Position numbers and translations under genes: made by a program. Under the pieces are notes generated by a model. The model saw only the letters and a list, made by a program, of their open reading frames with translations. It did no database searches and was not told the origin of the DNA. From a virus, in IMG/VR virus record IMGVR_UViG_3300029911_000151, positions 1 to 22,611 of that record: 22,611 nt of DNA; one strand, 5' to 3'. Below are positions 6,469 to 22,611 of this stretch, piece after piece; position 1 is the first letter of the stretch; the number at the start of each line of letters is the position of its first letter.

Positions 6469-6654
6469 TTAGTCTGCAAATGAGAGTTCTTCTTCTTCAT
6501 CTTTTTTGGCAGGATCATCATGAGCTTCCAAACTCTCTTCCAGCCGAGTAATTACACTTTCAATAATATCTGGAATAAGTTCTTCATCTACTTTATTTTC
6601 AACCAAAACATCCTCCAAAGAGGATTCCAGCAACTTATAGGCGAGACGGTTCAT
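6469..6654 (-). CDS. Acidic helical protein, 61 aa, unknown
   Basis: AAGGAA lies seven bases before the ATG. The protein is strongly acidic and probably helical: MNRLAYKLLESSLEDVLV starts an amphipathic helix, and the C-terminus is a Glu/Asp run (KKDEEEELSFAD). Small acidic phage proteins of this type often bind or mimic nucleic-acid-interacting host proteins, but nothing in the sequence identifies a target. It sits 8 bases downstream of the membrane-anchored gene and 12 bases before the 80-aa gene. Confidence 0.6.
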   Translation of the reverse strand: MNRLAYKLLESSLEDVLVENKVDEELIPDIIESVITRLEESLEAHDDPAKKDEEEELSFAD

Positions 6655-6662
6655 GTTTTTCC

Positions 6663-7292: not shown

Positions 7293-7936
7293 TAATTCTT
7301 CTTCTTTTTGGTATAAGGTACAATTTCATCAACCAAACCAAGGTCTATAGCCTGTTGAGCATCGTAATAGGTATCTTTCTTGCAAGCCTTAACTACGTCC
7401 GAATGACTCATTTTACCCTTAGACGAATTAGCTAAAACATTGTAATACCGTTCGTTGTTTTCTTTTAGATCTTCTGCGTGTTCAAGCATTTCGTGAGCTT
7501 GAAATTGGTTCTCGCCAGAAATAAATAGTTTCCCCTGGTGAATCATGATCCTACTTTCCGGCATCATCCTGCGGGTGTCTGCGGCTTGAAGGATAAGGGC
7601 TCCAATGCTACTTGCGGCTCCAGCCACGTCCATAGTAACGTGGTTTCGGGCCGTTCTAATGGCATCGTAGATAGCCATCCCTATCTCCATGGAGCCGCCA
7701 TTGGAGTGAAAGGTTATATAGATAGGAGCTTCAAAAGTATCCATAACTGAAAATGCAGTTATAAATGCCTTAAATAGTTCTTCATCTACATCCCCAACCA
7801 GAAACAGTCTACGCTCCCTAAGGCTGACACCCATGCTGACGGCTATTTGTAACTCACCAGCTACAGTACTAATTTCTACTAACTCACCAGGATCTGTCCT
7901 GGTTGTGGTTTTCGTCTTTTTGGGGGCTTTAGGCAT
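7292..7936 (-). CDS. ClpP-like serine protease, 214 aa
   Basis: ClpP-family peptidases degrade or process proteins; phage members often act as head maturation proteases or as free Clp-like enzymes. The triad is visible: Ser110 in GAASSIGA (equivalent to GQAASMGA), His133 in SRIMIHQ, and Asp188 in KKDTYYDAQQAIDLGLVD. The HSNGGS loop (77-82) is the oxyanion region. An N-terminal basic, Thr-rich tail of about 15 residues precedes the fold. Because it lies in the replication/accessory block and not next to capsid or portal genes, a regulatory or host-directed protease is plausible, but a maturation role cannot be excluded. The ATG directly follows the helicase stop, with AAGGAA inside the helicase end. 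Confidence 0.88.
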   Translation of the reverse strand: MPKAPKKTKTTTRTDPGELVEISTVAGELQIAVSMGVSLRERRLFLVGDVDEELFKAFITAFSVMDTFEAPIYITFHSNGGSMEIGMAIYDAIRTARNHVTMDVAGAASSIGALILQAADTRRMMPESRIMIHQGKLFISGENQFQAHEMLEHAEDLKENNERYYNVLANSSKGKMSHSDVVKACKKDTYYDAQQAIDLGLVDEIVPYTKKKKN

Positions 7937-9178: not shown

Positions 9179-9291
9179 AGGTTCTTCCGTAACGAAGTCT
9201 CCCCACTCCGTAAGTTCTTCTACGGTTGGAATGCGCTTAAATTCATCATAAAACTTTATCTTGGTGGTCCAAACCTTGCTAGAAATGGCAT

Positions 9292-9408
9292 CTAAAAACC
9301 AATTAGCTTGGATTTTATAACGGGAAAGAGTAAGTGACCCAAAACGGCATCTTGTTTTTTAGCACTAAAGGGGAGTTGAATTGCGTCTAGATCGTTTTCG
9401 ACAGACAT
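9292..9408 (-). CDS. N-terminal fragment of the helicase gene, frame-disrupted
   Basis: The ATG at 9408 has AAGGAA ten bases upstream. The leader AAGGAATACCAT also precedes the deformylase gene. The reading frame encodes MSVENDLDAIQLPF, then SAKKQDAVLGHLL, which looks like the first helix of a gp41/DnaB N-terminal domain, and stops at TAG 9292-9294. The motor-domain frame is open across 9358-9179, overlapping this one for about 64 bases in the -1 frame. Reading this start and then the -1 frame gives a continuous helicase. The cause may be a lost base, programmed frameshifting, or a sequence error. A T6 run (A6 on the coding strand) lies at 9355-9360, exactly where the two open frames begin to overlap. 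Confidence 0.6.
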   Translation of the reverse strand: MSVENDLDAIQLPFSAKKQDAVLGHLLFPVIKSKLIGF

Positions 9409-9432
9409 TTAGATGGTATTCCTTGTTAGAAG

Positions 9433-9750
9433 TTAGGGTAATTGAGACTTCTTAAATTTATATCCGTACTGCTTTTTCTTTATTATGTCGGGCGAGCACT
9501 CTGATACCATATAGGCTTTCGCTGCATTTAATTGTCTCAAAAGTTCGTCAATCCAAGTACTAGACGCACACATCTGATTAAACCAAACACCATCATCCTC
9601 CATTAATATATTAATCATAACGTGTGGGTCTTTATCGCCATTGCGAGGGGATAATCCAACCCCAAGACACTTTCCTTTGAATTCTTCGGTGTAATCCATC
9701 TCATTGTCTCCATCATACCCAAAATCTGTCATGTCGTCTGTATCTGCCAT
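9433..9750 (-). CDS. Acidic hypothetical protein, 105 aa
   Basis: AAGGAG precedes the ATG. The N-terminus is very acidic (MADTDDMTDFGYDGDNEMDYTEEF) and the C-terminus basic (IIKKKQYGYKFKKSQLP). The middle carries HVMINILMEDDGVWFNQM, a possible beta-strand pair, then a helix (WIDELLRQLNAAKAYMV). It has two Cys but no paired motif. It lies between primase and helicase with a 24-base gap to the helicase start, so it could be a primase-helicase accessory or loader-type protein. That is a position-based guess; I do not recognise the family. Confidence 0.65.
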   Translation of the reverse strand: MADTDDMTDFGYDGDNEMDYTEEFKGKCLGVGLSPRNGDKDPHVMINILMEDDGVWFNQMCASSTWIDELLRQLNAAKAYMVSECSPDIIKKKQYGYKFKKSQLP

Positions 9751-9758
9751 AACTCTCC

Positions 9759-11834
9759 TTAGAAGTTAAAAGCTTGATCAAAAATCAGTTTGGCTTTATT
9801 TATTCGTTTTGCCACACTATACTGCTCAAGTACTTCTTCAAATGTCATTTCGCCTAGGTCTTTGTGGCCCTTAGAGGGTTCCATCAAATACAAATCAAAC
9901 TCATCTTCGTATTTTTGAACCAATTTAATAGTCTCATCTAAAGCGTCTGGGTCTAATCCAAGGTATATTTTCTTAATGCCGAGATGGCGTAACAGTTGTA
10001 TTTGGTGTTTAGTGACGATTTTGCCCATAGAGGCTACGTTCCCGCCAATCATATCACAGTTGTGTACAACTGTAAAGTCTTTAAGAAGAAACAAATGATC
10101 TCCGTCTGTTTCAATACCATAAAAAACCCCATCTTCAACTGAATTTATTTTGAACTGGCTTTTTGTTGGAATATGTTTTGGGGTGTAGGAAGTAGGAACT
10201 TTTTTTCTAGGGACGCGCAAGGGAATTTCAGACAAATCACCACCAATCGTAACACTATAATATAAACTTGGTCTGCCGGGAGTTTTGCTCGTAGAACGCA
10301 CATAAGGCGTCAGACATGTTTTAAACCCCAAGGATCTGGATAGCCACACAAAAGAATCTACGATAACTTTGGATTTTTGAGTAAACCTTATATGATTTTT
10401 GTTAGTAGTACCGTCCGTATCAATCAAACCCGCTAAAAGTTCTAGTCTTTGTTGTCTAGATCCATGTAAATAAATGTCTGGAATGTGTTTATTATTTAAT
10501 ACTCCCAATTCATTTAATTTTAATTTAGAATTAGTCATTATTGTTCGAGCTTTACCCTTACACCCATTTCTCTTTCTTAGTACCTTTCCTGACAAAAATT
10601 CCAAAGCGATAGTAAATGGTTTAGCTGCATATTTTGAAGCTTTGTTTCCCGTCCTATCTAAAATTTCTACAAAATCATCATTTTTATTGACCCAATTACA
10701 CCACTCTTGGGCTATCTCACTATCCATACTAGTCAAAAGAGCTTGATCAGAATCTCCGTCACCCAGCCAAATACCAAGAATATACGGTGGAATGGACAAC
10801 GATTTTTCTGGAAATTCTAAAATAGCTCGATATAAAGAAAAGTGTTGTTGAGTGTTATGCTTGTATTTTAAATAATTATTGACCGAAATTTCTATTTTAT
10901 TATATATAGGTTTTTTATCGTGTCTCTTTTCCAATGACAAAATATGTTCTCCATTACAAACCCACGAGTCCCCACCGCCAGATGGAGTGATCTTATATAG
11001 CGGACCAAATCCATCATTAACAGAAAGAACGTTACGGGCGTTGCCGTCTGGACCCATTAGTTGGTCACCCACTACAATATTTTGAACGGCTTTTGAAGAG
11101 CCATCCGACATCATAACCATTGTATCGATACCAAAACATTTCATAGAATCCAGAGGCCCCTCGCTTATAACAGCTTTGTCGCCGGGAGTCAAGCGGTCAT
11201 AAAACATCACCAATTTATCCCTAGGAGTTCCATTTTCTGTAAGGATCTTGGGGATCCTTCTTACTTGACCATCCTTAAAGTAGGTGGTTTCACCCGTAAA
11301 GCGACCTTGCCCGCCGTAAAGGGTACCACCGGCTTTGACCGGGAAGACCACCCGTCTCGACGTAATGTCATAGTGCAGGTCGTATTTAACGGCAACTTCC
11401 AGGGGGATTCCACGGGATTCCAAATAGCGGAGCCCTCGGGAGGACAACTTGTGCGAGATAGGGTAATAACCATACGGATATACTTTCGGTTCTAATACTA
11501 AAGGTTCTTCTGGTTCTGGTTCTTGCTGAAAATCTAAAAAATTAAATACAAATGTCTCTTCAAAATTACTTAAGGTTATTTCCCCATACAGCTTGGATTT
11601 CATTTCACTTAAGGGAATACCAGTCAACACAGATAGAGCGTATTCTGCTTTGCCCTTGAAATTATTAGTTTCAGCGCAACTAAAGCATATAAACGCTCCA
11701 TCTTTCTTACGTATATAGAGTTTGTCAGGCTTGTCGCATAACGGACATCTAAATACGTAAGAATTTGTTGTTGTTCGAAAATTAAGACCCAGGTCGTCTA
11801 TGACCTTAAATAATTGTTTGGGTTCTATAGACAT
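9759..11834 (-). CDS. DnaG-type primase with in-frame intein, 691-aa precursor
   Basis: The primase synthesises RNA primers for lagging-strand replication. The N-terminus carries a zinc-binding module CPLC-x16-CFSC (Cys30, 33, 50, 53). The TOPRIM catalytic domain begins at GDKAVISEGPLDSMK (Glu225) and resumes after the intein with CDMIGGNVASMGKI, followed by the acidic LGLDPDALDE (Asp628, Asp630). An intein occupies residues 233-592, so the spliced primase is 331 aa, similar in size to T4 gp61-like phage primases. No helicase domain is fused; that is a separate gene. The ATG has only a weak RBS (GATGAG) and follows the RecA-like gene by 9 bases, suggesting coupling. Primase activity should depend on splicing, because the insert interrupts TOPRIM. 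Confidence 0.9.
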   Translation of the reverse strand: MSIEPKQLFKVIDDLGLNFRTTTNSYVFRCPLCDKPDKLYIRKKDGAFICFSCAETNNFKGKAEYALSVLTGIPLSEMKSKLYGEITLSNFEETFVFNFLDFQQEPEPEEPLVLEPKVYPYGYYPISHKLSSRGLRYLESRGIPLEVAVKYDLHYDITSRRVVFPVKAGGTLYGGQGRFTGETTYFKDGQVRRIPKILTENGTPRDKLVMFYDRLTPGDKAVISEGPLDSMKCFGIDTMVMMSDGSSKAVQNIVVGDQLMGPDGNARNVLSVNDGFGPLYKITPSGGGDSWVCNGEHILSLEKRHDKKPIYNKIEISVNNYLKYKHNTQQHFSLYRAILEFPEKSLSIPPYILGIWLGDGDSDQALLTSMDSEIAQEWCNWVNKNDDFVEILDRTGNKASKYAAKPFTIALEFLSGKVLRKRNGCKGKARTIMTNSKLKLNELGVLNNKHIPDIYLHGSRQQRLELLAGLIDTDGTTNKNHIRFTQKSKVIVDSFVWLSRSLGFKTCLTPYVRSTSKTPGRPSLYYSVTIGGDLSEIPLRVPRKKVPTSYTPKHIPTKSQFKINSVEDGVFYGIETDGDHLFLLKDFTVVHNCDMIGGNVASMGKIVTKHQIQLLRHLGIKKIYLGLDPDALDETIKLVQKYEDEFDLYLMEPSKGHKDLGEMTFEEVLEQYSVAKRINKAKLIFDQAFNF
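10059..11138 (-). mobile_element. Intein with LAGLIDADG homing endonuclease inside the primase
   Basis: The intein runs from Cys233 (CFGIDTMVMMSDG, block A) to His591-Asn592 (LFLLKDFTVVHN, block F), followed by extein Cys593; splicing would join Lys232 to Cys593. Block B includes GEHILSL with His297. Two dodecapeptide-type motifs, LGIWLGDGD (353-361) and LLAGLIDTDG (466-475), mark a LAGLIDADG endonuclease that could drive homing into intein-less alleles. The splice residues (Cys1, penultimate His, terminal Asn, Cys+1) are all present, so it should be functional. It sits between the TOPRIM Glu and the DxD motif, a conserved active-site region that inteins favour. The Lys/Asn-rich middle differs visibly from the flanking primase. 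Confidence 0.93.
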
Positions 11835-11843
11835 GGGCTCATC

Positions 11844-12929
11844 TTACTTCGATACGATGCCCAAGTCCAGTTCTTTGATTTTCTTTAAAACATCATTATA
11901 AAGGACATTATCGTCACGCAAACCTAGTAAAAAGGCTTCCTTACTAGTAAAAGTCTTACCTCCAAATTCATAGGTGCGATTATTTGGGCGATGAATGATA
12001 TTTTGGTTTACAGATAGGGTGAAAAGCTCTTCGTGTTGATTAATAATACCCTTCTTGTAATCAAAAAGGAATTCACCGGTACGACCTACGCAAGAACCGT
12101 CAGCTGAACTTCCCTTCATAGTAACTTTGATTTTATGACCAGTTAAAATGGGCTTTTCATTAAAGTCCAAACGAGTATCATCTTCAAACTTATTCCCTAA
12201 TTCATCAACCTTACCGTCTGCATTCATAAGTCTCTGAACATGCATAAAGTACTCAGCATAGTGTTGGACGCCCCAGCTAGCAGACATCTTGGTTGTGTTT
12301 CCACGCATACGTTCAACTTGGTCCAGTTCGGCCCTAACGTGGGCTGTGGCAATAACAGCAAACTTGTATTTACGTTGAACAGGAAGTATGCGCTTGAAGC
12401 CTTCTTGTAGGGTCTGGGCTACATCACCAATGGTCATATCCATAATAGACTCATTATTTAAACCTCTGCGTCCTTGAATTTGAGTGATAGAGTCTATAAT
12501 AATAAGTTTAATCGGCGCGCCCTCTTCGCATTGTTCAGCTATATTATGCTCAATAGTATCAAATATAGAAGGAGAATTGGTTTGGATAGTGCGAATACGG
12601 TCCGGATCTATTCCAAACAGCTTATTGGCTTGTTCTGTATCATCCTGGCCTCCCTGTAGACCTTCTCTGAACTCAGTGTCGAACTTAATAACCAAAGCTT
12701 CCGGATCGTATTTATGAAGGTGACCTGCAAAGTAATTACTTAAAACACTTTTTCCACACTTTGGAGGACCATACATAATAAGGCTATAAGCAAGAGGTAA
12801 GCCGTGAGACTTCCCAAAAGTATAATTTACACTAGGTGAAGGAGTTTCGATTGTATGAGCAAATGGGTTATAGTTCTTTTGCATTACACCGTCCCATTTG
12901 TCTATTTTTGCCATCCATTTATTAGCCAT
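11844..12929 (-). CDS. RecA/UvsX-like recombinase ATPase, 361 aa
   Basis: This protein probably acts in homologous recombination or recombination-dependent replication by forming filaments on single-stranded DNA. It has Walker A GPPKCGKS (54-61), FDTEF (83-87, the catalytic Glu region of RecA proteins) and Walker B KLIIIDSI (141-148). A later AVIATAHVRAELDQ segment resembles the L1/ATP-sensor region. The length is near that of T4 UvsX (391 aa). It starts directly after the previous stop with GGAG as RBS, and abuts primase on the other side. The alternative is another RecA-fold ATPase such as a second helicase, but the neighbouring gp32-like SSB and helical protein favour recombination. Confidence 0.8.
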   Translation of the reverse strand: MANKWMAKIDKWDGVMQKNYNPFAHTIETPSPSVNYTFGKSHGLPLAYSLIMYGPPKCGKSVLSNYFAGHLHKYDPEALVIKFDTEFREGLQGGQDDTEQANKLFGIDPDRIRTIQTNSPSIFDTIEHNIAEQCEEGAPIKLIIIDSITQIQGRRGLNNESIMDMTIGDVAQTLQEGFKRILPVQRKYKFAVIATAHVRAELDQVERMRGNTTKMSASWGVQHYAEYFMHVQRLMNADGKVDELGNKFEDDTRLDFNEKPILTGHKIKVTMKGSSADGSCVGRTGEFLFDYKKGIINQHEELFTLSVNQNIIHRPNNRTYEFGGKTFTSKEAFLLGLRDDNVLYNDVLKKIKELDLGIVSK

Positions 12930-13496
12930 TTATTTAATATCTCCAAAATACGTATCTACTCTTGCTTTACTATTAAAACCAAGCCGACGATTAGCCTCAT
13001 CGGCACCATTTAATTCAGATTGACGATTATTTAGGTTAGGATTATGCTCACCAATCTGCTTCTTGGCTCCAGTATAGCCCATCTCTAAAGACTTTAAATG
13101 ATGCTTTAGGAGTTCTTGAAGAGCCGCCAATTGCTCTACTACGTCCTTAATTTGAACGTAGTCAGAATCAGTCTCCATCATTGCGTCTATATTACTTTTA
13201 GTGTCTTTGAGGTGCTTTTCCTTTAGTTTAGTAGGTATTTCATCCAAAACAAGGATACTCTTACGCTTGTTAAGAGCAGCAACAGCATTGATTTCTTCCA
13301 AGCGAACAACATTTAAATATTTTCCTAATACCAAATAAGCCTTATTAAAAGTACTCATTAGCTCGGGTGCTTTCATTGGGCTTAGGCTTCCAACCTCAGA
13401 TATGCGACCCAAAACTTCGTATACATGGGTTAGATCAACCTCTAGACCATCTGTTCTTCCAGGTAGGGTTGGGATTTTTACTATTAAGTTTGACAT
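12930..13496 (-). CDS. Helical protein, 188 aa, possible recombination mediator
   Basis: The sequence is helix-rich (VVEQLAALQELLKHHLKSLEMGY in the second half), with charged residues but no nucleotide-binding or metal motif. It is the first gene after the structured leader and promoter P2 and sits just before the RecA-like gene, the place where T4-type phages often carry a small UvsY-like mediator that loads UvsX on SSB-coated DNA. The size (188 aa, versus 137 for T4 UvsY) and composition allow that role, but I see no diagnostic motif, so it is position-based. The ATG has no close Shine-Dalgarno: the nearest purine run (GAGGGAG) is 18 bases away and is part of the leader stem. Confidence 0.65.
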   Translation of the reverse strand: MSNLIVKIPTLPGRTDGLEVDLTHVYEVLGRISEVGSLSPMKAPELMSTFNKAYLVLGKYLNVVRLEEINAVAALNKRKSILVLDEIPTKLKEKHLKDTKSNIDAMMETDSDYVQIKDVVEQLAALQELLKHHLKSLEMGYTGAKKQIGEHNPNLNNRQSELNGADEANRRLGFNSKARVDTYFGDIK

Positions 13497-13675
13497 AATT
13501 TAGATTTATAAAAGCTCCCTCTTGTGAAAAATAGCGTTCAGTCCTAACCCATGGTGGAATTCGTTTACTACTTATCCACATCTCCGGGCCATCCTCCAGG
13601 GATACCCGGTATTTTGATTAAAATAGGAGTCGGTTCCAGCCCGGTTATTTTCCAACAAGAGAGAGAAGTATAGTA
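13497..13675 (-). ncRNA. Candidate structured leader RNA upstream of the 188-aa gene
   Basis: About 180 bases without a gene, transcribed from P2. The RNA begins (about 10 nt after the predicted start) with CUCUCUCUUGU (13665-13655) and ends with ACAAGAGGGAG (13525-13515), which pair over 11 positions including one G.U. On the opposite strand that pair would be a C/A mismatch, so the stem suits this strand. It encloses CCGGG and CCCGG elements (13605-13609 with 13584-13588), with an extra upstream CCGGG that could compete for pairing. The closing stem buries GAGGGAG, the only RBS-like stretch near the next ATG. This resembles a regulatory leader or riboswitch-like element, but I cannot assign a known class. 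Confidence 0.4.
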
Positions 13676-13681
13676 ACATCT

Positions 13682-13711
13682 ATAATACTGCGTTATATTA
13701 CCTCACCACAA
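13682..13711 (-). promoter_or_regulatory. Sigma70-like promoter P2 before the RecA/primase/helicase genes
   Basis: The minus strand reads TTGTGG (13706-13711), an 18-base spacer, and TATTAT (13682-13687); both boxes are recognisable though not perfect. The expected start is near 13675, about ten bases before the leader stem. It would drive the 188-aa, RecA-like, primase, 105-aa and helicase genes. No clear rho-independent terminator separates it from the upstream SSB gene, so read-through is also likely. Confidence 0.5.
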
Positions 13712-13718
13712 CTACATT

Positions 13719-14795
13719 TTACTGACTTAGGTGATCCATTAGTTCTTGTTCGGTAGGGGTAGCTACCGTGACTGATTTGTGTTTAGTGGCTGCCCGTAGG
13801 TAGTCCAACCCGCTGTCCTCCGAAGCAACAGGAGCTACGGTACGCTTTACCTCGACAACCCCAGGAGCGGTCGGTTTGGCCTGATTGACTTCGCCTGGAG
13901 CTAGCTCTATGACATTATGCAGGGTAGTTTGGGCTGCATCCATGATTGTATCTACTAGTTCTAGGTTCCCCTCACCATTATCAACCAATTGTTGAATTTG
14001 AACTTCCGTTAATACCGGTGTAGCGTGGGCATGATTTAGATCCATGCAGAAACGGCTGATCTTCTCAACATCGTCTTGGACCAGAGGAGCCTTTACGCGC
14101 TTCTGGAGAGCCTCTCCGTCAACATTGACTTCAACGCTGTAAGGTTTGGCTGAATATACAGTCTTACCAGAAGAATCAACTCCCCGACTAAACTCAAAGA
14201 AGCAACCTTCCTTGGGGCTAATGGTCTTCTCTTCGCCCATCTTATCGATGCAATCCTTTACATCGTTATAGGCCCCAGCCCCAATGCACATATTTCCAAA
14301 GGTTCCGTCTAGGTACTTAACAGCGATATAGTACTTGCGATCACAGTTGAAGTTGCGAATCCAAGCTGATAGGTTAACCCAACGGGCATCGGCCTTCTTG
14401 GCGACTTTGATTTGTTCCTTGCTGGGATTTGCCCCTAGGCTGTTCTCAATGTCACTCTCTAGCTTCTTGAGGGTGTTGGATTGTTCCTCAAACGAGGTGC
14501 ATTGAGGGCAGTTTTGGGTAACCATCTTGGTCTTCCAGTCTCTTTCTTCAATGCAAAGAAACGGAGCGATCCAGGGAGAACCATTTACGTCCTTTTTGTT
14601 GGTACGCTTGAAGCCCCAATGGACGCCATGGCGCTTGGCCCAGCGACCAATACTCCTATTGCTCTTAAAGGGTGGAACGACCCTGGCAACTACCGTTTCG
14701 CCTTCTTTTAGCTTACGGGCACTAAGATAAGTGCGCTTTGAAAGGGTTTCATTTTTACCAGCTACTCCAAATACATCATCGAAATTATTGTCCAT
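13719..14795 (-). CDS. gp32-like single-stranded DNA-binding protein, 358 aa
   Basis: The start is placed at ATG 14795 (MDNNFDDVF), with AGAGGAA 8-10 bases upstream. The frame is open 33 codons further, but those overlap the upstream gene and have no RBS. The N-terminal half has a zinc-subdomain pattern like T4 gp32: His56/His59, then FLC81 and CPQC (96, 99). Aromatic and basic residues that fit ssDNA binding occur around it (GRWAKRHGVHWGF, RKYYIAVKY). The C-terminal ~90 residues are Ala/Pro/Val-rich with scattered acidic residues, like the disordered tail through which phage SSBs contact polymerase and other replication proteins. It lies between replication genes, which supports the call. 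It overlaps the previous gene by 11 bases. Confidence 0.65.
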   Translation of the reverse strand: MDNNFDDVFGVAGKNETLSKRTYLSARKLKEGETVVARVVPPFKSNRSIGRWAKRHGVHWGFKRTNKKDVNGSPWIAPFLCIEERDWKTKMVTQNCPQCTSFEEQSNTLKKLESDIENSLGANPSKEQIKVAKKADARWVNLSAWIRNFNCDRKYYIAVKYLDGTFGNMCIGAGAYNDVKDCIDKMGEEKTISPKEGCFFEFSRGVDSSGKTVYSAKPYSVEVNVDGEALQKRVKAPLVQDDVEKISRFCMDLNHAHATPVLTEVQIQQLVDNGEGNLELVDTIMDAAQTTLHNVIELAPGEVNQAKPTAPGVVEVKRTVAPVASEDSGLDYLRAATKHKSVTVATPTEQELMDHLSQ

Positions 14796-15510
14796 TTTTG
14801 TTTTTCCTCTTTGACTTGTTGCTGCTTTTTGGGGACGACATGTCCACTTGGTTTTCAGTGCTAGGTTCAATATTAGGACTCTGTTCGGTCCCAATTGACT
14901 TCGTGTAAGTACCCGAAAACATACGGGAAATTGTACTTACTTTATTTGGTTTTACATTTTTAATAACAACATTTGGAAGTGTTTCCTTGGTATCCTTGCG
15001 TTCGAATAGCTTATCCAAAATAGACTTACTTAGGTATCGGTCAGCAAAGTAATCTATATGGGCTTTTTCAAATAGCTCTTTAAGGTGTACTGGTAGTCCT
15101 TGAGCGTCTGTTGCAACCGCAAATAAACGACTATAATCAATAGCATCGAACTCCATTATACCTAACTCTAGCGCGTTTTCAAGCATAAAATTACGCATGT
15201 GAGCTATATTGTTTACATCAAAACGTCCCTTAACGAAGTTAGGAATAGACTTACCCATATCGACGTAAAACTGATTTGCATCAAACACCAGCGTATCTAC
15301 CGAAGGCTCTACATCATCGGCAAATACAGGCGTAACCGCCTTAGCAATGAGACCACCGTATGAAGAACGTAAGTTCTTTAGCTCTTCCACAGATTGGTTC
15401 TTACGCATGGTCCAAGCCGCACGAACGTTCAAGGGAACCTCATCCACATTCATAGTGCTGGCCTTGACAGCCAATTTGGCCTTGTCTACGATAATATCTA
15501 TTTTATCCAT
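14785..15510 (-). CDS. Hypothetical protein, 241 aa, with Ser/Lys-rich C-terminus
   Basis: An AAAGGAAAA ribosome binding site precedes the ATG. The first ~170 residues look like a folded, helix-rich soluble domain (NIAHMRNFMLENALELG). The last ~50 are low-complexity Ser/Asn/Lys, ending KRKNKNGQ, a tail that also encodes the AGAGGAAAAAC ribosome binding site of the SSB gene. There is no recognisable catalytic motif. Tight coupling to SSB and the neighbouring small genes suggests a replication-associated role, but I do not recognise a family. Confidence 0.7.
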   Translation of the reverse strand: MDKIDIIVDKAKLAVKASTMNVDEVPLNVRAAWTMRKNQSVEELKNLRSSYGGLIAKAVTPVFADDVEPSVDTLVFDANQFYVDMGKSIPNFVKGRFDVNNIAHMRNFMLENALELGIMEFDAIDYSRLFAVATDAQGLPVHLKELFEKAHIDYFADRYLSKSILDKLFERKDTKETLPNVVIKNVKPNKVSTISRMFSGTYTKSIGTEQSPNIEPSTENQVDMSSPKSSNKSKRKNKNGQ

Positions 15511-15533
15511 TATTAGATTTTCCTTTAAACTAT

Positions 15534-15743
15534 TTACGTAACCACTTGAAATAACTTAGCGAATGCAGTTTGGTCCAATACTTGAACAATACCAGTTTCA
15601 TGGTCCCTGACAACCCAGTCGCCAGGATTGGCGTTAAGTGCAAAACCAAAGGGGGTTTCGACTTGAATATAATCATCAACTTGATACGCTATTGCCGGTG
15701 TAGGTTGATGTACCACCTGTAAATATACGATTTCTTTAGCCAT
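15534..15743 (-). CDS. Small beta-rich protein with PGDWVV motif, 69 aa
   Basis: AAGGAAG lies before the ATG, within the end of the 137-aa gene, and the two overlap by 8 bases. The sequence is rich in Val, Gln and aromatic residues with short strands. ANPGDWVVRDHETG contains a PGDW-type turn that I associate with small phage-encoded proteins of unknown function. It has no cysteine, membrane helix or catalytic motif. The function is unknown, but packing and RBS make it a confident coding call. Confidence 0.65.
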   Translation of the reverse strand: MAKEIVYLQVVHQPTPAIAYQVDDYIQVETPFGFALNANPGDWVVRDHETGIVQVLDQTAFAKLFQVVT

Positions 15744-16149
15744 TTTTATTCTTCCTTTTTACCTTCAGCACGTCCGCTAGATTAAGAAGAGGAAACACAA
15801 GACGATCTGCTTGATTTTCGTCGTAATAAGCATGATCATTCGCCTCCATTACAAGGTCGGCAGCGGTTTCAAATGAAGTCGGATTGCGACTCCAAGGCAT
15901 TTGTTCGTCATGAAGGTAGTTAGCTTCCCACTTGACGTGACCAAGAGCGCAGCTTGGGCCAATGATCTTATCTTTTGAATCAACATTCAATAAATCATTA
16001 AATGAATAAAATGTATTATTTGAAACAATAGGTTCCTTTTTGAATTCCTGTCCAATGTCAAAATGCTTTACTTCCCCACTTGCACATTTTAACGCTAGAT
16101 TGCGCGCTGCTCGTGCCATTCGTGTACGGATCTTATCTTGTGTAGCCAT
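15736..16149 (-). CDS. Hypothetical protein, 137 aa
   Basis: This is the first gene behind promoter P3, with a strong AAAAGGAAG ribosome binding site located in the duplicated 53-bp repeat. The N-terminus is basic (KIRTRMARAARNLALK). The middle has GPSCALGHVKWEANYLHDE and FETAADLVMEANDHAYYDE, a mix of His, Asp and Glu that could be metal-binding, though I cannot place a known motif. It ends KVKRKNKNG, a tail that encodes the RBS for the next gene. It was probably once directly behind the polymerase stop, before the promoter cassette was inserted. The family is not recognised. Confidence 0.65.
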   Translation of the reverse strand: MATQDKIRTRMARAARNLALKCASGEVKHFDIGQEFKKEPIVSNNTFYSFNDLLNVDSKDKIIGPSCALGHVKWEANYLHDEQMPWSRNPTSFETAADLVMEANDHAYYDENQADRLVFPLLNLADVLKVKRKNKNG

Positions 16150-16198
16150 TTTTTATTCTTCCTTTTGGGTTATAGGTTCTCTTATTACATTGATTAAA
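16146..16198 (+). repeat. 53-bp direct repeat, copy 1 (before the 137-aa gene)
   Basis: This is a perfect copy of 16296-16348, with 150 bases from start to start. It contains the start codon and RBS of the 137-aa gene on the minus strand, plus a silent copy of the last codons of the DNA polymerase gene (INVIREPITQKEE and stop) that are not translated in this position. Only the segment between the two copies is unique. Confidence 0.9.
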
Positions 16199-16209
16199 AA
16201 CTTAACAAC

Positions 16210-16238
16210 AAGATACACTAAAAAAACTTACTTGTCAA
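16210..16238 (-). promoter_or_regulatory. Sigma70-like promoter P3 in the inserted segment
   Basis: The minus strand has TTGACA (16233-16238), a 17-base spacer and TATCTT (16210-16215): a perfect -35 with optimal spacing. The predicted start near 16203 leaves a leader of about 53 bases, largely the duplicated repeat, before the 137-aa gene. It gives the genes downstream of the polymerase (137-aa, 69-aa, 241-aa and SSB) their own transcription. It is the strongest promoter I see in the window. Confidence 0.65.
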
Positions 16239-16254
16239 GCAAGACGGGTGGATT

Positions 16255-16299
16255 TTAAATAATTTGCAGCATTAACACAAAATTATCAATATCTTCCAT
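16255..16299 (-). other. 14-codon remnant or pseudo-start behind the polymerase stop
   Basis: The second repeat copy supplies the same RBS and ATG as the 137-aa gene, but here they lead into MEDIDNFVLMLQII and a stop. It begins three bases after the polymerase stop. It may be translated as a short peptide, be the N-terminal leftover of a deleted gene, or be an accident of the insertion. It is recorded because the RBS is strong. Confidence 0.35.
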
Positions 16300-16348
16300 T
16301 TTTTATTCTTCCTTTTGGGTTATAGGTTCTCTTATTACATTGATTAAA
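16296..16348 (+). repeat. 53-bp direct repeat, copy 2 (DNA polymerase 3' end)
   Basis: This copy is part of the polymerase coding region. It covers its final 14 codons and stop (16303-16305) and a following RBS-ATG. It is identical to 16146-16198. Because the repeat contains both a gene end and a downstream start, it looks like the original gene junction that was duplicated when the 97-base unique segment entered. Confidence 0.9.
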
Positions 16349-19300
16349 TCAAGTGAAGGATCTTTCCCCTTCTTTGATTTAGTTAAAACAGCAATAACTA
16401 TACAGCCTGTCAAGTCTTTTTTGAAGGAAGATATTAACTCTCCTGTATTGTAATCTGGCCACTTTACCACTTTAATTTGTTGTCCAGCTACATCCAATAC
16501 ATACTCCGCAGCTTCCTTGGTTCCATGGTAAGTAAACAACCTATACTCCAAAACAACCGCCGCTACAGCCACTGTTGTCTTATTTGGCAATACGGGTAAA
16601 TCTTCAAGCATAGACAAATAGGAGGGGTTAACAAACGGATATCGATCTAGGTAAACATACATCCGTTTTTCTTCATTCCTGGTAACATCCTGGATTTTAG
16701 AATCTACCATAATAGGAAGAACAGATCCAGCAAAATAAGGCATAAGTTGTTTACGGTACTGGTATCGAGTCAAAGCGTCAAATTTAAGAAACTTTTGTTC
16801 TATTGATTTTTGTTTAGATCCAGTAATTAATGCTTTTTCTTGTTCATACAGTTGTAATTTAGACAATATGTCCATATTTTCAGGAAATAGAGAATCAGCA
16901 ATACCAGATATAATCAAATTATAAGCAACCTTGCGATTTATAGCAGAGTGAGCTTTTTTAATCTTTGGTGGTTCGTTAGGAGTGGAGAATAGGTCTATTT
17001 GTTTGGATTCCTTAACCTCTGGCTCTATTGTAGTTCCATTGGCAATACTTTCGTTTTCTATCTTTTGCAAGAAATCCTTAATATCAGTAAATGGACCAAG
17101 CTTGGTCAATTCCAAATACGCCTTTTCTCCAACCCCCTCTAATAACCATAGCGGGGCTCTTAGTTTGTTTCCTTCTACGATAAAGCCAGAACCGGAGTAT
17201 TTAATGTCCGGCAACAAAACAAAGCTAGAGCAATACTTCCAAAACTTTTCTTGTATTTCATTTCTATTAGAGTTGGAGAGAACAGCGCACCACCACTGCA
17301 AGGGGTAGAAATGTTTTAAATAGGCAGTAGCGTAAGCCGTAACTGCATAGCAGCAGGCATGGGACTTGTTGAAAGAATAACGACTAGAAGTCACCAATTG
17401 CTCCCAGACCTTTTCTCCCACTTCTTCCCCAACCGTATCCTTGGCTCCACGCATGAAAATTTCTTTATCTTTAAGGACCTTTTCGGTGTTTTTCTTGGAT
17501 GCATGACTACGGAACCCTTCGGCTTCTACCGATGTAGCCCTACCTACCTCTCGAAAAACCTTAGAGGCAGTTTCTTGGAATACCAAAACCCCGTATGTAT
17601 CGGGGGAAATATCTTGAAGTTCCTGAATCAAACCAATAGGTTTATCACCTTTGGCCCTTGCTACATATTCCTCCAACATGTTCCGAGATGTGGTTCCATC
17701 TGAAACAACAGCATCTAGTGTTCCTGGACGATCCAAAGCTGTAAATACAGCTATATCGGAAATACTGTTTATACCCATCTTTCCGTTTGATTTTTGAAAG
17801 TTGAATAACTGTAAGTATTTTTTCGCACCAGACGTGTTTAATTGAAAGACAGTTTCAGTTTTACCGTCTAATATATCTTTGAATACTTCATCTTTTTCTG
17901 GTAAATCCCATATATCATGTAAATTACCCTCTAAATCAGGAACAAGCCTAAAACCAGGAACCCTACGACCATTTAAGGTGTGATCGTTTAGGTATTTAGG
18001 ATCATTAGCTTGAATAATTTCTATACACTTAGAGATATCTTCCAATATCTTAATTACCAGGAAGTCTATCTTAATACCACCAGCCTCTTCTACCTCGTCT
18101 TTGGTCCATTGGGTTGCGGTAACTCCATCAATATTCATTGTAGGTAGGAAACTAGAGATAGGCATATCTCTGTCAGTGATTACATACCCTCCGGCGTGTA
18201 CCCCTTTGCCCTTTACCAAAGATAGGGCAAGTTTTGCTGTTTCCCATGCTTCGGGATAATTCAATACAAACTCTTTAAGGGCTGGATCGGTGTCTATAGC
18301 CCCTGGAACGAAGTCTTCATCCTTGGGTTGGTACCCAAACACATGGGCTTGGTCTGTAACGCCCTGAGGGGCATCCGCCATGCGTTTAGTCAAGGCATGG
18401 ACCTCTTTAGAGACCTCACCGTAAAGAGCCCTACATACATCCTTAATAGCTGATTTCAAGCGGAGGGTACCATTTGTAGAAATCTTAGCTACATGGTTCT
18501 TACCAAACCTACGCTCTAGGAAGCCAGGACGACCTTCGGTGCCATCAAGAATATCTCTATTGAATAAATCATGGTCAATGTCAGGATAAGAACCGCCCTG
18601 GATACGATCTGGAGTAATAAATCGAGATAAAGACAAATCATCTTTAAATGGATCTACATGGGTAATACCCAATAGATAAGCAATAAATACGCCAGCTGCG
18701 CTGCCCCTTCCTGGACCAGTAAGAAGACGGGCCTTTTCATATTCAGACAAAACCTCTTCCTGCGTAAAGAAATATGGCAAGAAGTCAGTAACACCATTCT
18801 TTTGTAGTAAAACAACCTCTTCCTTGAGACGTTCTACATATTTAGGGTTACTCCAGTCCATCCTTCCATGCTTACGGATCAACTCAAATAGATACTTTAC
18901 TGTATCGTGAGGATAGAATTGGGCTGGAAGTGACTTCTTATCTTGAAACTTAAAGTCCTTAAAACCAGAAGCCCAATTACGGCTATTCTCCACCCAAGAA
19001 CGGAACTCATCCTCTTGTATCCCCATGTTTTGATTGAAAAATTCAAAACACTCGCTGGAGCTTTTACGCCAATAACCTTCTGAAAAGTGCCAATTGCCAG
19101 ACTGTAATAGTCTAACCTTTTGAACAACCACATGTTCAGGAATAGCTACGTGGGAATCGTCTGATACTACAATTGGATCCCCATATTTTTTAGCTAAATC
19201 TATAACAAATTGATTGGCACCTATTTGCACGGCTCCATTGGGAGCGTATGGGGAGCATTCATTTTGTATGAATCCCTCCACCAGACGTATATTATTAAAA

Positions 19301-20130
19301 TGAAACGGCTCTTCTTCAGTCAAAACCTTATAACGAAAGGTTCCGACCAGCCTATAATCGGCTTGTTTGTCCTTGAAACGCTTAGCGAGCGTCTTTCCGT
19401 CAATTTCATGACGCTTTCCTTTTGCATCTAGGACCAAAAGACGTTTATTTGGATGCAACCGTTTTTCGGTACCATCTGGATTGATTAAATATAGAGATTC
19501 CTCCCAGTTAGTATCACATTTATGTGGAAATACTTCCACAATAAAGTTTCCAGGTTTAACAATAGACCGTAGCTTTTCGTAGTATTTAACAGCGATATCT
19601 GGACGGTTCAGAGCAAGGTGGCCTTGAACAGCCCCAATTAAGCAGCTAGAGCCCATAGTCACGTTCTTGGACCCAAGCTCTTCAAGTTCTTCCCAGCCGA
19701 AGATCGGCTTCTTCTCAGATCCCCACGTTTCTGCCGTTTCGTCTGCAATTGAGATAAGACGTGCCGCTGTCTGGAAGGCTTCATAGTCCTTAAAATGCAT
19801 TGTTACGTGAAAGTATTTACGATAATCAATATACGATAATTGGTCTTTGGTTGGACCCTTTTCGGCTATTGTCTTGGATACACCCATAGACTTGAGAATT
19901 TCACACTCACGAGGGCGTAAATACGACTCCAAACCAAGTATTGGGGTAATCTTAGCCTTTTTAGCTAAATCGTAAATCTTGCGAACGCCAGCAAGAGTTC
20001 CATGGTCCGTAGTAGTAATATAGCCAGTGTTCAGGTCCAATTCTCTACGCAAAAAAGATTCTGGTGTTGAGCCAGAATCAAGAGAAAGGGTGTGACAATG
20101 TGGTGTAACTAGTGGATCGAAATCTTTCAT
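16303..20130 (-). CDS. dnaE: Family C DNA polymerase, PolIII alpha (DnaE-like), 1275 aa
   Basis: This is the replicative polymerase of the phage. The N-terminal PHP domain shows HCH (11-13), TTDHG (40-44), GLES (66-69) and a DDSH motif, indicating a possibly active metal site. The polymerase core has GPGRGSAAG (472-480), catalytic aspartates in PDID (Asp517, Asp519) and IKIDFL (Asp689), and GVHAGG. At 1275 aa it is longer than E. coli DnaE (1160). There is no separate proofreading exonuclease in the window, so the PHP domain might supply it, as in some bacterial DnaE proteins. No Shine-Dalgarno precedes the ATG, and the promoter at 20140-20168 would start transcription only two or three bases upstream, so the message may be leaderless. 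The final codons are duplicated downstream (53-bp repeat). Confidence 0.95.
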   Translation of the reverse strand: MKDFDPLVTPHCHTLSLDSGSTPESFLRRELDLNTGYITTTDHGTLAGVRKIYDLAKKAKITPILGLESYLRPRECEILKSMGVSKTIAEKGPTKDQLSYIDYRKYFHVTMHFKDYEAFQTAARLISIADETAETWGSEKKPIFGWEELEELGSKNVTMGSSCLIGAVQGHLALNRPDIAVKYYEKLRSIVKPGNFIVEVFPHKCDTNWEESLYLINPDGTEKRLHPNKRLLVLDAKGKRHEIDGKTLAKRFKDKQADYRLVGTFRYKVLTEEEPFHFNNIRLVEGFIQNECSPYAPNGAVQIGANQFVIDLAKKYGDPIVVSDDSHVAIPEHVVVQKVRLLQSGNWHFSEGYWRKSSSECFEFFNQNMGIQEDEFRSWVENSRNWASGFKDFKFQDKKSLPAQFYPHDTVKYLFELIRKHGRMDWSNPKYVERLKEEVVLLQKNGVTDFLPYFFTQEEVLSEYEKARLLTGPGRGSAAGVFIAYLLGITHVDPFKDDLSLSRFITPDRIQGGSYPDIDHDLFNRDILDGTEGRPGFLERRFGKNHVAKISTNGTLRLKSAIKDVCRALYGEVSKEVHALTKRMADAPQGVTDQAHVFGYQPKDEDFVPGAIDTDPALKEFVLNYPEAWETAKLALSLVKGKGVHAGGYVITDRDMPISSFLPTMNIDGVTATQWTKDEVEEAGGIKIDFLVIKILEDISKCIEIIQANDPKYLNDHTLNGRRVPGFRLVPDLEGNLHDIWDLPEKDEVFKDILDGKTETVFQLNTSGAKKYLQLFNFQKSNGKMGINSISDIAVFTALDRPGTLDAVVSDGTTSRNMLEEYVARAKGDKPIGLIQELQDISPDTYGVLVFQETASKVFREVGRATSVEAEGFRSHASKKNTEKVLKDKEIFMRGAKDTVGEEVGEKVWEQLVTSSRYSFNKSHACCYAVTAYATAYLKHFYPLQWWCAVLSNSNRNEIQEKFWKYCSSFVLLPDIKYSGSGFIVEGNKLRAPLWLLEGVGEKAYLELTKLGPFTDIKDFLQKIENESIANGTTIEPEVKESKQIDLFSTPNEPPKIKKAHSAINRKVAYNLIISGIADSLFPENMDILSKLQLYEQEKALITGSKQKSIEQKFLKFDALTRYQYRKQLMPYFAGSVLPIMVDSKIQDVTRNEEKRMYVYLDRYPFVNPSYLSMLEDLPVLPNKTTVAVAAVVLEYRLFTYHGTKEAAEYVLDVAGQQIKVVKWPDYNTGELISSFKKDLTGCIVIAVLTKSKKGKDPSLDLINVIREPITQKEE

Positions 20131-20139
20131 TGGTTAATC

Positions 20140-20168
20140 AATGTAGCACAACGACCAACACTAGTCAA
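20140..20168 (-). promoter_or_regulatory. Possible sigma70 promoter P4 for the polymerase gene
   Basis: On the minus strand, TTGACT (20163-20168), a 17-base spacer and TACATT (20140-20145) fit a promoter. The expected start lies about 2-3 bases from the polymerase ATG. An imperfect palindrome, CATTG-gttaat-CAATG (20128-20143), covers the start codon and part of the -10 box, so it could be an operator or simply chance. Moderate support only, because the -10 box is weak. Confidence 0.4.
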
Positions 20169-20393
20169 CTAACCATTGAGGAATCTTAAGAATCCATGCA
20201 AAAAATCACTAATTCTATTGAATTCCAAAGAAACCAAAAACCACAAAGGAAAATAATGCCAATTAATCATACCTAGTATGCTTCCAGAACCTTTGTATTC
20301 CCAGGGGTTTCTATCTGTGAATCTTTTATAAATAAAAGCCCATATGAATTCAGAACTGTATATAACTAAAACATACAATATGGAGGTCAACAA
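20169..20393 (-). CDS. C-terminal half of TMEM229/CmpB-like membrane protein, 74 aa
   Basis: The reading frame begins with overlapping TTG codons and gives hydrophobic helices (LTSILYVLVIYSSEFIWAF), a conserved-looking DRNPWEYKGSG segment, and YFPLWFLVSLEF. This matches my memory of the second half of the TMEM229/CmpB family (putative ABC-transporter type IV, PF06541), where a PW-Y motif is followed by a P-W-F/L helix. The N-terminal half is the next gene upstream, in the other frame, with a 7-base overlap. The two together would make one ~140-aa membrane protein. The stop lies directly beside the polymerase promoter. Confidence 0.55.
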   Translation of the reverse strand: MLTSILYVLVIYSSEFIWAFIYKRFTDRNPWEYKGSGSILGMINWHYFPLWFLVSLEFNRISDFLHGFLRFLNG

Positions 20394-20584
20394 TGCATAT
20401 TCACCTTAAGACACTCTAAGGCCATACCAGCTGTACTATATACAGGTATTACGCTAAGATGACTGTACGTTACAAAGTGTACATCTCTATGTTTTATATA
20501 GGATTTTAGACCGGTAAATAGGTTTTCAAGTAATAAACCTACAACCCCTATGGCCAGAGCGTGTTGTAGCCATAGAAGTTGCAT
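20387..20584 (-). CDS. N-terminal half of TMEM229/CmpB-like membrane protein, ~65 aa
   Basis: The ATG at 20584 is preferred over the GTG at 20593, with AGGG eight bases upstream. It encodes LWLQHALAIGVVGLLLENLFTG, then KSYIKHRDVHFVTYSHLSVIPVYS, resembling the family's first helix, the E-x-L-F-T-G element and the conserved IPVYS (WMFPIYG) helix. It stops after ECLKVNMHC, in the middle of the family fold, while the continuing part lies in the -1 frame. It may be a genuine split gene or a frameshift mutation. The function of this family is unclear. Confidence 0.55.
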   Translation of the reverse strand: MQLLWLQHALAIGVVGLLLENLFTGLKSYIKHRDVHFVTYSHLSVIPVYSTAGMALECLKVNMHC

Positions 20585-20610
20585 AGGAATCACCCTATGT
20601 TTAAATATTA

Positions 20611-20958
20611 CTAGAGATTTTTATGCAAATGAGGTAATGAAAGTAAAATAGTATTAAATAGTTTATCTATAGTGGGATCCCAAGACTTTTCTACACTATT
20701 TTCCATGATTATTTGCTGTAGATAGGCTAGAAGGTCCAAAGCCTCCATTAAGGCATCAGCTCTGGCGTTACGACCATTAAAGGGCATCAAAGGAACACCA
20801 TACCTTTTAATTCCAACCTCATTACGCTCTACCATTAAATCTATAATAGATTCTGGAAGATCTACATTTCGGGCCTTTTCAAGAACCTCATGCCAACAAC
20901 TATTAAAATCAGCAGACTTATTGACTGGTTCTGGTTGGTCCAGACTATAAGCTTCCAC
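20611..20958 (-). CDS. MazG-like / dNTP pyrophosphohydrolase-type protein, 115 aa
   Basis: The start is GTG at 20958, with AGGAG seven bases upstream, overlapping the preceding TAG (TAGTG). The central region ERNEVGIKRYGVPLMPFNGRNARADALMEALDLLAYLQQ has a Glu-rich first helix, a G-I-x-x-Y-G turn and an E-A-L-D-L helix, a pattern I associate with small phage MazG-like proteins that hydrolyse dNTPs or (p)ppGpp-type nucleotides. The metal-binding Glu/Asp set is plausible but not diagnostic. A nucleotide-housekeeping role would suit a replication block. The alternative is an unrelated helical protein. Confidence 0.65.
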   Translation of the reverse strand: MEAYSLDQPEPVNKSADFNSCWHEVLEKARNVDLPESIIDLMVERNEVGIKRYGVPLMPFNGRNARADALMEALDLLAYLQQIIMENSVEKSWDPTIDKLFNTILLSLPHLHKNL

Positions 20959-21260
20959 TAAATAACTCCTAGGATTACCCTGAGTTTACTTACTATGTCT
21001 GAATATAATTCATCCAGGTCTTCAGTGGAAATAAGAAGACTTTGAGCTATAGTGTGATCTGGTATTGGACCATCAAAACGTTCAATCATCTTATCCAAAG
21101 AATAACCATAACGTTTGCAGTACACGTAATCAGGATCGGTATGTATTTTTTCTCTTATCTCTTTAGGGTTTAAGGACACTAGGGACTCGAAACTGTAAAA
21201 TCTTTGCGGTTGCGGGAGGAGGTTTGGACTTATTGATGCGTTCAAGTGTTTTAAGTTCAT
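20958..21260 (-). CDS. Hypothetical protein, 100 aa, overlapping upstream gene
   Basis: The first ~33 codons overlap the end of the coiled-coil gene in another frame by 98 bases. The convincing part is the C-terminal ~72 residues (SLNPKEIREKIHTDPDYVY, then CKRYGYSLDKMIERFDGPIPDHTIAQSLLISTEDLDELYSDI), which look like a folded helical domain. The ATG at 21260 has AGAGG immediately adjacent, without spacing; a GTG at 21179 would be an alternative start, without RBS. Its stop overlaps the MazG-like start. Family unknown. Confidence 0.55.
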   Translation of the reverse strand: MNLKHLNASISPNLLPQPQRFYSFESLVSLNPKEIREKIHTDPDYVYCKRYGYSLDKMIERFDGPIPDHTIAQSLLISTEDLDELYSDIVSKLRVILGVI

Positions 21261-21549
21261 CCTCTATTTTCTTCTTTTGATTATTAGCCTGTTGACAATC
21301 TTGTTTGGTTTTAGCTAGGCATTCCTTGATTTTAATAATATCTTCCTTGGTCTTTAAGTACTCAAACATCTTGACTATCTTGGCGTCTTTCATGTTCCGA
21401 TGGTGTTTTGTTAGCTTTTTCAGCTCAGAAACCAATTCAACTGAAAAAACAGACATTTTGGTTATAATGTCATTTACACCGCTAAGTTTGATATTTACGT
21501 CAAGTATATCTGAATCAATCTGTCCCATACCATTAATATTGGCAGTCAT
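21163..21549 (-). CDS. Coiled-coil protein, 128 aa
   Basis: The ATG directly follows the metallophosphoesterase TAG, without a clear RBS, so translation is probably coupled. Residues ~30-110 are a long charged helix with heptad pattern (LVSELKKLTKHHRNMKDAKI, then KKKIEDELKTLERINKSK), typical of a coiled coil. The C-terminus is Pro/Lys-rich. A small coiled-coil partner beside an SbcD/Mre11-like phosphoesterase is suggestive of an SbcC/Rad50-like role, but it lacks any ATPase domain, so that remains a guess. Confidence 0.6.
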   Translation of the reverse strand: MTANINGMGQIDSDILDVNIKLSGVNDIITKMSVFSVELVSELKKLTKHHRNMKDAKIVKMFEYLKTKEDIIKIKECLAKTKQDCQQANNQKKKIEDELKTLERINKSKPPPATAKILQFRVPSVLKP

Positions 21550-22611
21550 CTAAGCTGGGAAACCGGGCCAAGCAGGTATAATGGAGTCCAAAGTAGTATC
21601 ACGGTCTGTTTCTTCAGATACTTCAATAAACCTATAGTCGCCAAAGGGATGATCTGGGACTGATTCCCATAGAGTTTGACCATTGGCCATATCCATAGAA
21701 CCTATAGATTGGGAGTAAGGATCCGGAGGAATAAGGGCTCCGTTTGTAATAATTACCTTGTGGGGTAGTCTTACTACCGAAGCTGTATGTACGTGCCCTA
21801 CGGCAAACATATCATAAGACACACCCAACGGCTTAGCGGCATTTATCTTATTTGTTTGATTTTCCAATGATTTAATGTTGATATTACTGGAAGGGAACCC
21901 TACATTGAGGACAGTATCACCGTGAGTTAAAAACAAATGAGAATTATGAATAGGTACATCTACGTATGGAGTTAGGGGTATATGGAACCTAACATTTGAC
22001 AATCCAATCGTAGCCCTATAAACTCCATAGTATATATCCATTTCATTGGAATCCCACTTTTGGTCTACGCCCCGGTCTTTGTGACGGGACTTATCTCTTC
22101 CGTGGTTACCAGTGGTACAATAGACATCAACCAATGGAAATTCCTTGCTAAATATCTTAACGGCTTTTTCTATTAGCCACATAGCCCTAGCAACCTGTTC
22201 TCTAACAGGAGCGCCCTGGCGAGGATCGTGTAGGCATCCTTGAATTATATCCCCTCCAAGCAATAAGTTTAACTTGGTTTCTTTTCGATATTGGGGCTTA
22301 TAATTAACCGTCTCTAATATAACCTTTGAAAACCTACGAGCCTCTTCAGTCTTGCCATAAGGCAGGGGACATTCTGCTCCATTTAGGTCTGAACCGAAGT
22401 GGGTGTCAGATATAAACAGAGTAACCTCCCTGGTGGTCTTTACGTTGACCTTTTTGATATTAGGAGGGGTCCATTTATAATTTGAAAACCCCTTATCGAT
22501 ATAATTACAAAGATCTTCCCCTACTACTTGTCGGAAAATAGCCTCCTCTTTGGTCTTTTTGACTGTTTTTGCGGTTGTCTTGTCCCGTTTGGACTCTATG
22601 TCTGATTCGGT
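21550..22611 (-). CDS. Calcineurin-like metallophosphoesterase, 5'-truncated by window edge
   Basis: The reading frame is open from the right edge to the TAG at 21550 (353 residues), with no ATG in the first ~170 codons, so the gene starts beyond the window. A start at TTG 22263 would delete the first catalytic motif and is therefore wrong. Motifs, numbered from the edge: SDTHFGS (68-74), LLGGDIIQG, CTTGNHGRD, LTHGD and AVGHVHTA, the complete metal-binding series of the calcineurin-like superfamily. The N-terminal ~60 residues are Lys/Thr-rich and not part of the fold. The SbcD/Mre11 nuclease branch, a nucleotide phosphodiesterase or a protein phosphatase are all possible; I cannot choose between them by eye. 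Confidence 0.88.
   Translation of the reverse strand, partial: TESDIESKRDKTTAKTVKKTKEEAIFRQVVGEDLCNYIDKGFSNYKWTPPNIKKVNVKTTREVTLFISDTHFGSDLNGAECPLPYGKTEEARRFSKVILETVNYKPQYRKETKLNLLLGGDIIQGCLHDPRQGAPVREQVARAMWLIEKAVKIFSKEFPLVDVYCTTGNHGRDKSRHKDRGVDQKWDSNEMDIYYGVYRATIGLSNVRFHIPLTPYVDVPIHNSHLFLTHGDTVLNVGFPSSNINIKSLENQTNKINAAKPLGVSYDMFAVGHVHTASVVRLPHKVIITNGALIPPDPYSQSIGSMDMANGQTLWESVPDHPFGDYRFIEVSEETDRDTTLDSIIPAWPGFPA

Follow-up and report, generated by a model that had tools for sequence, protein, structure and literature searches.

A duplicated gene boundary with a promoter-like segment behind the DNA polymerase gene of an Mx1-related virus

The window, meaning the whole stretch of viral DNA analysed here (22,611 nucleotides), carries its main genes on the minus strand from position 4929 onward, as judged from its list of open reading frames (ORFs). 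Read in that direction, a DNA polymerase gene (20130–16303) is followed by one copy of a direct repeat, a unique segment called U, a second copy of the repeat, genes for 137 and 69 amino acids, a gene called X and a homologue of the single-stranded DNA (ssDNA)-binding protein gene of Myxococcus phage Mx1. Beyond that homologue lie a 188-aa gene and the genes for a RecA-like protein and a primase. The polymerase matches the PHROG DNA polymerase family (E = 2.4e-154) and aligns at 44.5% with the DNA polymerase III alpha subunit of Mx1. The features of this region are as follows.

16303–20130, minus strand: DnaE-like DNA polymerase gene, 1275 aa, with its 3′ end within repeat copy 1
16296–16348, minus strand: repeat copy 1 (P1), with the last 14 polymerase codons and stop, a ribosome-binding site (RBS) and ATGG
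16255–16299, minus strand: 14-codon ORF (MEDIDNFVLMLQII, then a stop), with its ATG from P1, read by eye
16199–16295, minus strand: unique segment U, 97 bases, 28% GC, single copy in the 126-kb contig G001
16220–16243, minus strand: terminator-like hairpin and TTTTTTT, with seven pairs (two of them G-C), a loop of 3 and −4.3 kcal/mol
16210–16238, minus strand: sigma70-type promoter-like site TTGACA-17-TATCTT, with a start point expected near 16203
16146–16198, minus strand: repeat copy 2 (P2), adjoining the start of the 137-aa gene and supplying its RBS and start
15736–16149, minus strand: 137-aa gene, starting in P2
15534–15743, minus strand: 69-aa gene, whose RBS region has 17 exact nucleotides in common with the repeat (P)
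14785–15510, minus strand: gene X, 241 aa, which lies directly behind the polymerase in most relatives

A search of the window for repeats of at least 20 nt finds only one long exact direct pair, whose two 53-nt copies start 150 bp apart, at the coordinates given by an initial annotation of this DNA. Three other direct families are 20–32 nt long and 72–85% alike, and the longest exact repeat in 20 dinucleotide shuffles of the window is 13–16 nt, compared with 53 nt in the real sequence. The 53-bp repeats are far beyond chance. On the minus strand, both copies hold the content that had been ascribed to them: the polymerase end (LINVIREPITQKEE, then the stop), the RBS (GGAAG) and the start codon within ATGG.

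The 203-bp block formed by P1, U and P2 recurs at 100% identity in two more IMG/VR contigs, 3300029985_000693 (125,960 bp) and 3300029914_000036 (51,612 bp). Relative to the longer contig, the window shows two mismatches and has lost 22 and 10 bp in two deletions, all outside the block, and is thus taken to be a separate assembly. The two deletions set it apart from the shorter contig too and shift reading frames, which hints that the assembly may not be flawless and that the repeat block could be an assembly artefact. However, all three records carry an identical block, and a path through P1, U and P2 would need real reads over the junction of U with P2, such that the copy number may be understated but hardly overstated. 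Because two other assembled contigs carry the same block, we consider an artefact extremely improbable. The two losses lie at about 9328 and 20389 of the window relative to G001, where they break two ORFs that G001 keeps open, one for a helicase and one of 144 aa; by eye, AGTAA direct repeats flank the 22-bp loss.

The promoter-like sequence that the initial annotation placed in U is present, with a −10 hexamer (TATCTT) that has two mismatches. It is not the best in the window as had been claimed, since a scan of positions 4900–22611 gives it 10 of 12 and gives 11 of 12 to two other sites. Promoter-like sites in that stretch are no commoner than in shuffles (43, against a mean of 43.9 and s.d. 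of 6.6), as would be expected if the block were a neutral accident, namely a small duplication-insertion without regulatory effect in which the promoter match arose by chance. In contrast, sites that score at least 10 of 12 and begin with TTG, of which G001 has 31 on both strands together, are enriched about eightfold in its intergenic gaps: seven are found where 0.83 are expected (s.d. 0.86), a number reached in 0 of 300 shuffles. This comparison covers 33 gaps of at least 45 nt, whose positions come from our own simple ORF caller. A site of this grade arises in 27 of 2,000 dinucleotide shuffles of U. Furthermore, all three records keep the 53-bp direct repeat, and a useless repeat of this size should be lost easily. 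We therefore regard a neutral accident as improbable. The promoter-like site of U belongs to the class enriched in the intergenic gaps of this genome, and its predicted activity would yield a transcript that starts near 16203 and carries a leader of about 54 nt consisting almost wholly of P2.

The hairpin in U (CTTGCTTGACAAGTAAG, then seven T nucleotides) overlaps the −35 hexamer. By our own rule, a hairpin with a T-run occurs in 33 of 3,000 shuffles of U. It is absent from the list of our terminator scan, whose rule asks for three G-C pairs, and the folding of U as a whole is no better than that of shuffles (z = −1.26). As a terminator, the hairpin is weak and putative.

To place this block in a wider context, the same boundary was compared in related phages. 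The best match among phage records is Myxococcus phage Mx1 (genome announced in PMC10720576), where a 244-aa gene begins 2 nt behind the polymerase gene, with genes for the ssDNA-binding protein, a hypothetical protein, the RecA-like protein and the primase next in order. Alignment-based searches of IMG/VR supplied further loci. Among the 37 locus ids looked at, 34 hold both the polymerase and the ssDNA-binding gene, and L032, L060 and L064 are without one of these. L030 is the virus of the window itself and L041, a duplicate of L040, was omitted, leaving 32 relatives; also excluded were L023 (a cut copy of L022) and L026–L029 (22% identity). X had to end beside the ssDNA-binding gene, its start was sought from −90 onward, and the earliest available start codon was used. 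By this rule L022, L046 and L054 yield no X, although L022 does have a 263-aa ORF at −4 nt that ends just beyond the limit of the rule. Some of the remaining 29 loci are not independent of each other, such as L049 and L063, L035 and L036, and L057 and L061.

The usual order among these relatives is polymerase, X and ssDNA-binding protein. Of the 29 relatives with X, 23 have its start between −89 and +41 nt relative to the polymerase stop, and the negative distances partly reflect over-long starts that come from using the earliest start codon. In the other six (L025, L039, L043, L045, L049 and L063), different genes displace X by 237 to 2,587 nt. In the virus studied here X starts at +792 nt, and the intervening DNA comprises the repeat block, the 137-aa gene and the 69-aa gene. 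A hidden Markov model (HMM) built from the X proteins of the 29 relatives matches the 241-aa protein of the window with an E value of 1.1e-22 (0.11 for the best of 500 shuffled versions), and the window protein is therefore assigned to the same family; pairwise BLAST alone does not link it to its Mx1 counterpart (E = 0.23). Given this match and the order in the relatives, 792 nt were gained at the boundary of polymerase and X in the window, rather than the 150-bp unit that the initial annotation took to be the insertion.

Extra genes at this boundary take several forms. In L025, a 77-aa gene is inserted with closely similar RBS and start sequences on both sides, including a 12-nt exact repeat (AAGAGGAATAAA). 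Occupied relatives L043, L049 and L063 have 68–69 nt behind the polymerase with a −10-like sequence (by eye), whereas L025, L039, L045 and L046 have 0–27 nt, and the short spacing in these four indicates that inserts at this position do not in general have a promoter of their own. Taken together, the occupied loci suggest that extra genes have repeatedly landed at the boundary behind the replicative polymerase in the little-studied Mx1-related phages. Within the first 68–69 nt after the polymerase, L049 and L063 conserve TTGGCAnnAACTTTGCGTTATTG and, further on, TGCTATNAT ahead of an inserted 90–91-aa gene; by eye these sequences resemble a sigma54-type element (TGGCA-N-TTGC) and an extended −10 element. 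In L043, ATGTTATATTAAAA occurs twice, 39 and 1,351 nt past the polymerase stop, upstream of two different inserted genes.

In the comparison of occupied with empty junctions that the initial annotation had proposed, X adjoins the polymerase in 23 of 29 relatives. Close relatives yielded neither an allele with polymerase, P and the 137-aa gene lacking U nor one with polymerase, P and X lacking the insert, and the insertion may have arisen in one step or in two. Exact patterns for the polymerase tail and for the 137-aa gene start are found in IMG/VR solely in the same two records of this virus. The 137-aa protein has no PHROG assignment, no Pfam family above the cut-off (best E = 0.18) and no match among phage records, and the DNA from 15500 to 17500 likewise finds no match among phage records. 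Searched at E = 0.1 against 20 related records, neither the 137-aa nor the 69-aa protein gives a match; this search recovered the control G001 for the 69-aa protein and had no positive control among those records for the 137-aa protein. The AlphaFold single-sequence model of the 137-aa protein (pLDDT 44) is too poor to use, and its presumed resemblance to DUF6197 is backed by no result. A two-sequence RecA alignment used to look for host or prophage copies gave 96 candidate stretches in genome contigs, of which none was confirmed.

A free-standing mobile regulatory cassette inserted as a 150-bp unit, as the initial annotation had in mind, can be compared with the promoter early stem loops (PeSLs) of T4-type phages, in which a stem-loop terminator is joined to an early promoter and several homologous copies are dispersed in the genome. 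PeSLs were reportedly described by Arbiol (2010) and Comeau (2014). U is similar in that a hairpin with a T-run and a promoter-like site are combined in a short intergenic block, and in that the insertion keeps both neighbours usable. The hairpin of U is, however, a weak one of seven pairs with T7 that overlaps TTGACA, and U is not dispersed. A search for the 97-base segment elsewhere in the genome, also proposed in the initial annotation, finds it once in G001, where the best other exact match is 13 nt and no local alignment rises above shuffled controls. When sought as an exact match in IMG/VR, the 29-nt promoter core appears in no records other than the two of this virus, and the relatives point to the 792-nt block as the extra DNA. 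These observations argue against a mobile cassette of this type, which we hold to be very improbable. A high density of PeSLs is reported for shuffled regions. By eye, U could derive from a promoter at position 80,664 of the contig, but that site is absent among the best local matches listed, which themselves score below most shuffles.

The 150-bp segment is instead best read as the head of a moron-like two-gene insertion, composed of a weak terminator-like hairpin, a sigma70-type promoter and a copied RBS leader, because X adjoins the polymerase in 23 of 29 relatives and is displaced in six. With moderate confidence, we favour the interpretation that a lineage-specific insertion took place between the polymerase and X, with the repeat block as its scar and its regulatory head. 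The order of events and the recombination mechanism that we infer, together with the promoter and terminator activities, are these. The ancestor probably had X directly behind the polymerase, as in most relatives. New DNA carrying the 137-aa and 69-aa genes and the AT-rich block would have entered this boundary through illegitimate recombination or replication template switching, and during entry the last 46 nt of the polymerase gene, the downstream RBS and the start codon would have been copied a second time. P1 would then end the polymerase gene while P2 provides the leader and RBS for the new genes. Because U combines a sigma70-type promoter-like site with a weak hairpin followed by a T-run, we propose that it probably lessens read-through from the polymerase and that a new transcript probably starts at about 16203 and runs through the 137-aa, 69-aa, X and ssDNA-binding protein genes.

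The initial annotation stated that the insertion leaves the polymerase end and the downstream RBS intact. Indeed, the polymerase end is intact and the 137-aa gene is given an RBS, but the first ATG behind the polymerase opens merely 14 codons and no intact gene. The start of this short ORF is closer to the start of X than that of any other of 152 ORFs, with 13 of the 21 nt after the ATG matching (mean 6.25, s.d. 2.3), one of the 13 being a G that belongs to P1 itself. This similarity hints that P1 and the beginning of U are the remainder of an older X-like start. It would be consistent with U as a gene remnant produced by unequal crossover between siblings, one with polymerase, P and another gene starting MEDIDNF and the other with polymerase, P, the 137-aa gene, the 69-aa gene and X. 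An illegitimate join would have left a start-codon stub with the DNA that followed it, and the promoter would be incidental or would have come with the stub. A single crossover of this kind would account for the intact polymerase, the identical P copies and the stub. The margin is nevertheless small, as the next best ORF starts, one of which is that of the polymerase itself, reach 12 of 21, and the likeness to X fades after about 24 nt (16 of 24, then 22 of 42). Moreover, U has promoter-like and terminator-like sites that each occur in about 1% of shuffles. A gene remnant is therefore a possible but rather unlikely origin of U.

Four junctions in a stretch of about 1.5 kb (both repeat copies, the 69-aa gene and the ssDNA-binding gene) carry a nearly identical 20-nt RBS and start module (AAAAGGAAGAATAAAAATGG), with 0–3 mismatches; one unrelated site in G001 also has three mismatches. 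Taken together, the X-like stub start, these modules and the repeat in L025 suggest that genes may enter the polymerase boundary by exchanges that re-copy the RBS and start region; template switching and sibling crossover would both be compatible routes. Gene-boundary linker sequences are known in lambdoid phages, and the four neighbouring modules resemble them; here, by contrast, a role in recombination is only putative and the modules may partly reflect constraint on the RBS.

Phage morons, known from lambdoid phages, are genes that bring a promoter of their own and sit between two genes found side by side in relatives. Similarly, the extra genes here and a promoter-like site lie in the same orientation between genes that are neighbours in most relatives (23 of 29, with X displaced in six), and the promoter is predicted from a match to the gap-enriched class of sites. 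Unlike morons, the insertion shows no terminator-like site of its own behind the genes, as the terminator scan lists none for the minus strand from the 69-aa gene to X, and no different base composition. The GC content of the 137-aa and 69-aa genes (0.406 and 0.414) equals that of the polymerase (0.405) and X (0.401), so nothing marks them as foreign. It also differs in lying within the replication block of an Mx1-related phage and in having a duplicated junction as its left boundary. A transposon or insertion sequence would leave a short target duplication of about 2–14 bp, whereas the duplication here is 53 bp, and the 97 bases of U are too short for a transposase gene. Since position and promoter-like site fit the moron concept, terminator and base composition do not, and dispersed copies are absent, we describe the insertion as moron-like, with duplication of the junction on its left side, and assign it to neither the moron nor the PeSL family.

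These features suggest that one insertion arrived with, or later gained, a predicted promoter of its own while duplicating a gene boundary. If the promoter is active, duplicating a junction would offer a simple means of placing a new transcription start within an operon while both neighbours stay unbroken. The two 53-bp copies might also make the promoter removable, because if they recombined or underwent single-strand annealing, exactly 150 bp would be lost while the polymerase, the RBS and the 137-aa gene stayed intact. A phage population could then alternate between two forms, one in which the 137-aa, 69-aa, X and ssDNA-binding protein genes belong to the operon and one in which they have an independent promoter, and the block would be a reversible regulatory insertion made through duplication of a gene junction. 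We think such switching very unlikely.

Several other signals are present in this genome and its relatives. In G001 (loci L009–L014), 14 of 150 ORF starts have the motif AATTTTA in the 30 nt that precede them, compared with 0.59 expected; 12 of these 14 are on the plus strand, and in seven the motif is at exactly −14 from the start. It has 41 copies in G001 on both strands, with examples upstream of starts 1549, 10267, 21387, 37841, 51271, 91630, 104488–105348 (minus strand) and 105402, and it is found in the window at about 4500–4528, before a 132-aa gene. We consider AATTTTA a candidate late promoter for leaderless or nearly leaderless mRNA, or a candidate phage-specific initiation signal. 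Genes for tRNA-Trp and tRNA-Asn (G001 74795–74870 and 81822–81897) occupy gaps in the replication block. Upstream of each is a TTGAC(A/T) stretch, promoter-like by eye but not among the sites scoring at least 10 of 12.

The primase (9759–11834 of the window) bears a large intein-like insertion at residues ~233–578, a homologue of which is placed in the helicase gene instead in L034 (13078–14250) and L044 (10577–11770). The polymerase genes of L021, L022, L034, L035, L036 and L044 are interrupted by about 0.4–1.4 kb near residues 530–562, 640 and 923, with some interruptions common to several relatives, and these are likely to be inteins or introns. Finally, a 32-bp part of the RecA-like gene (11975–12006 of the window) has an exact copy 54.5 kb away in the same contig (G001 113249–113280).
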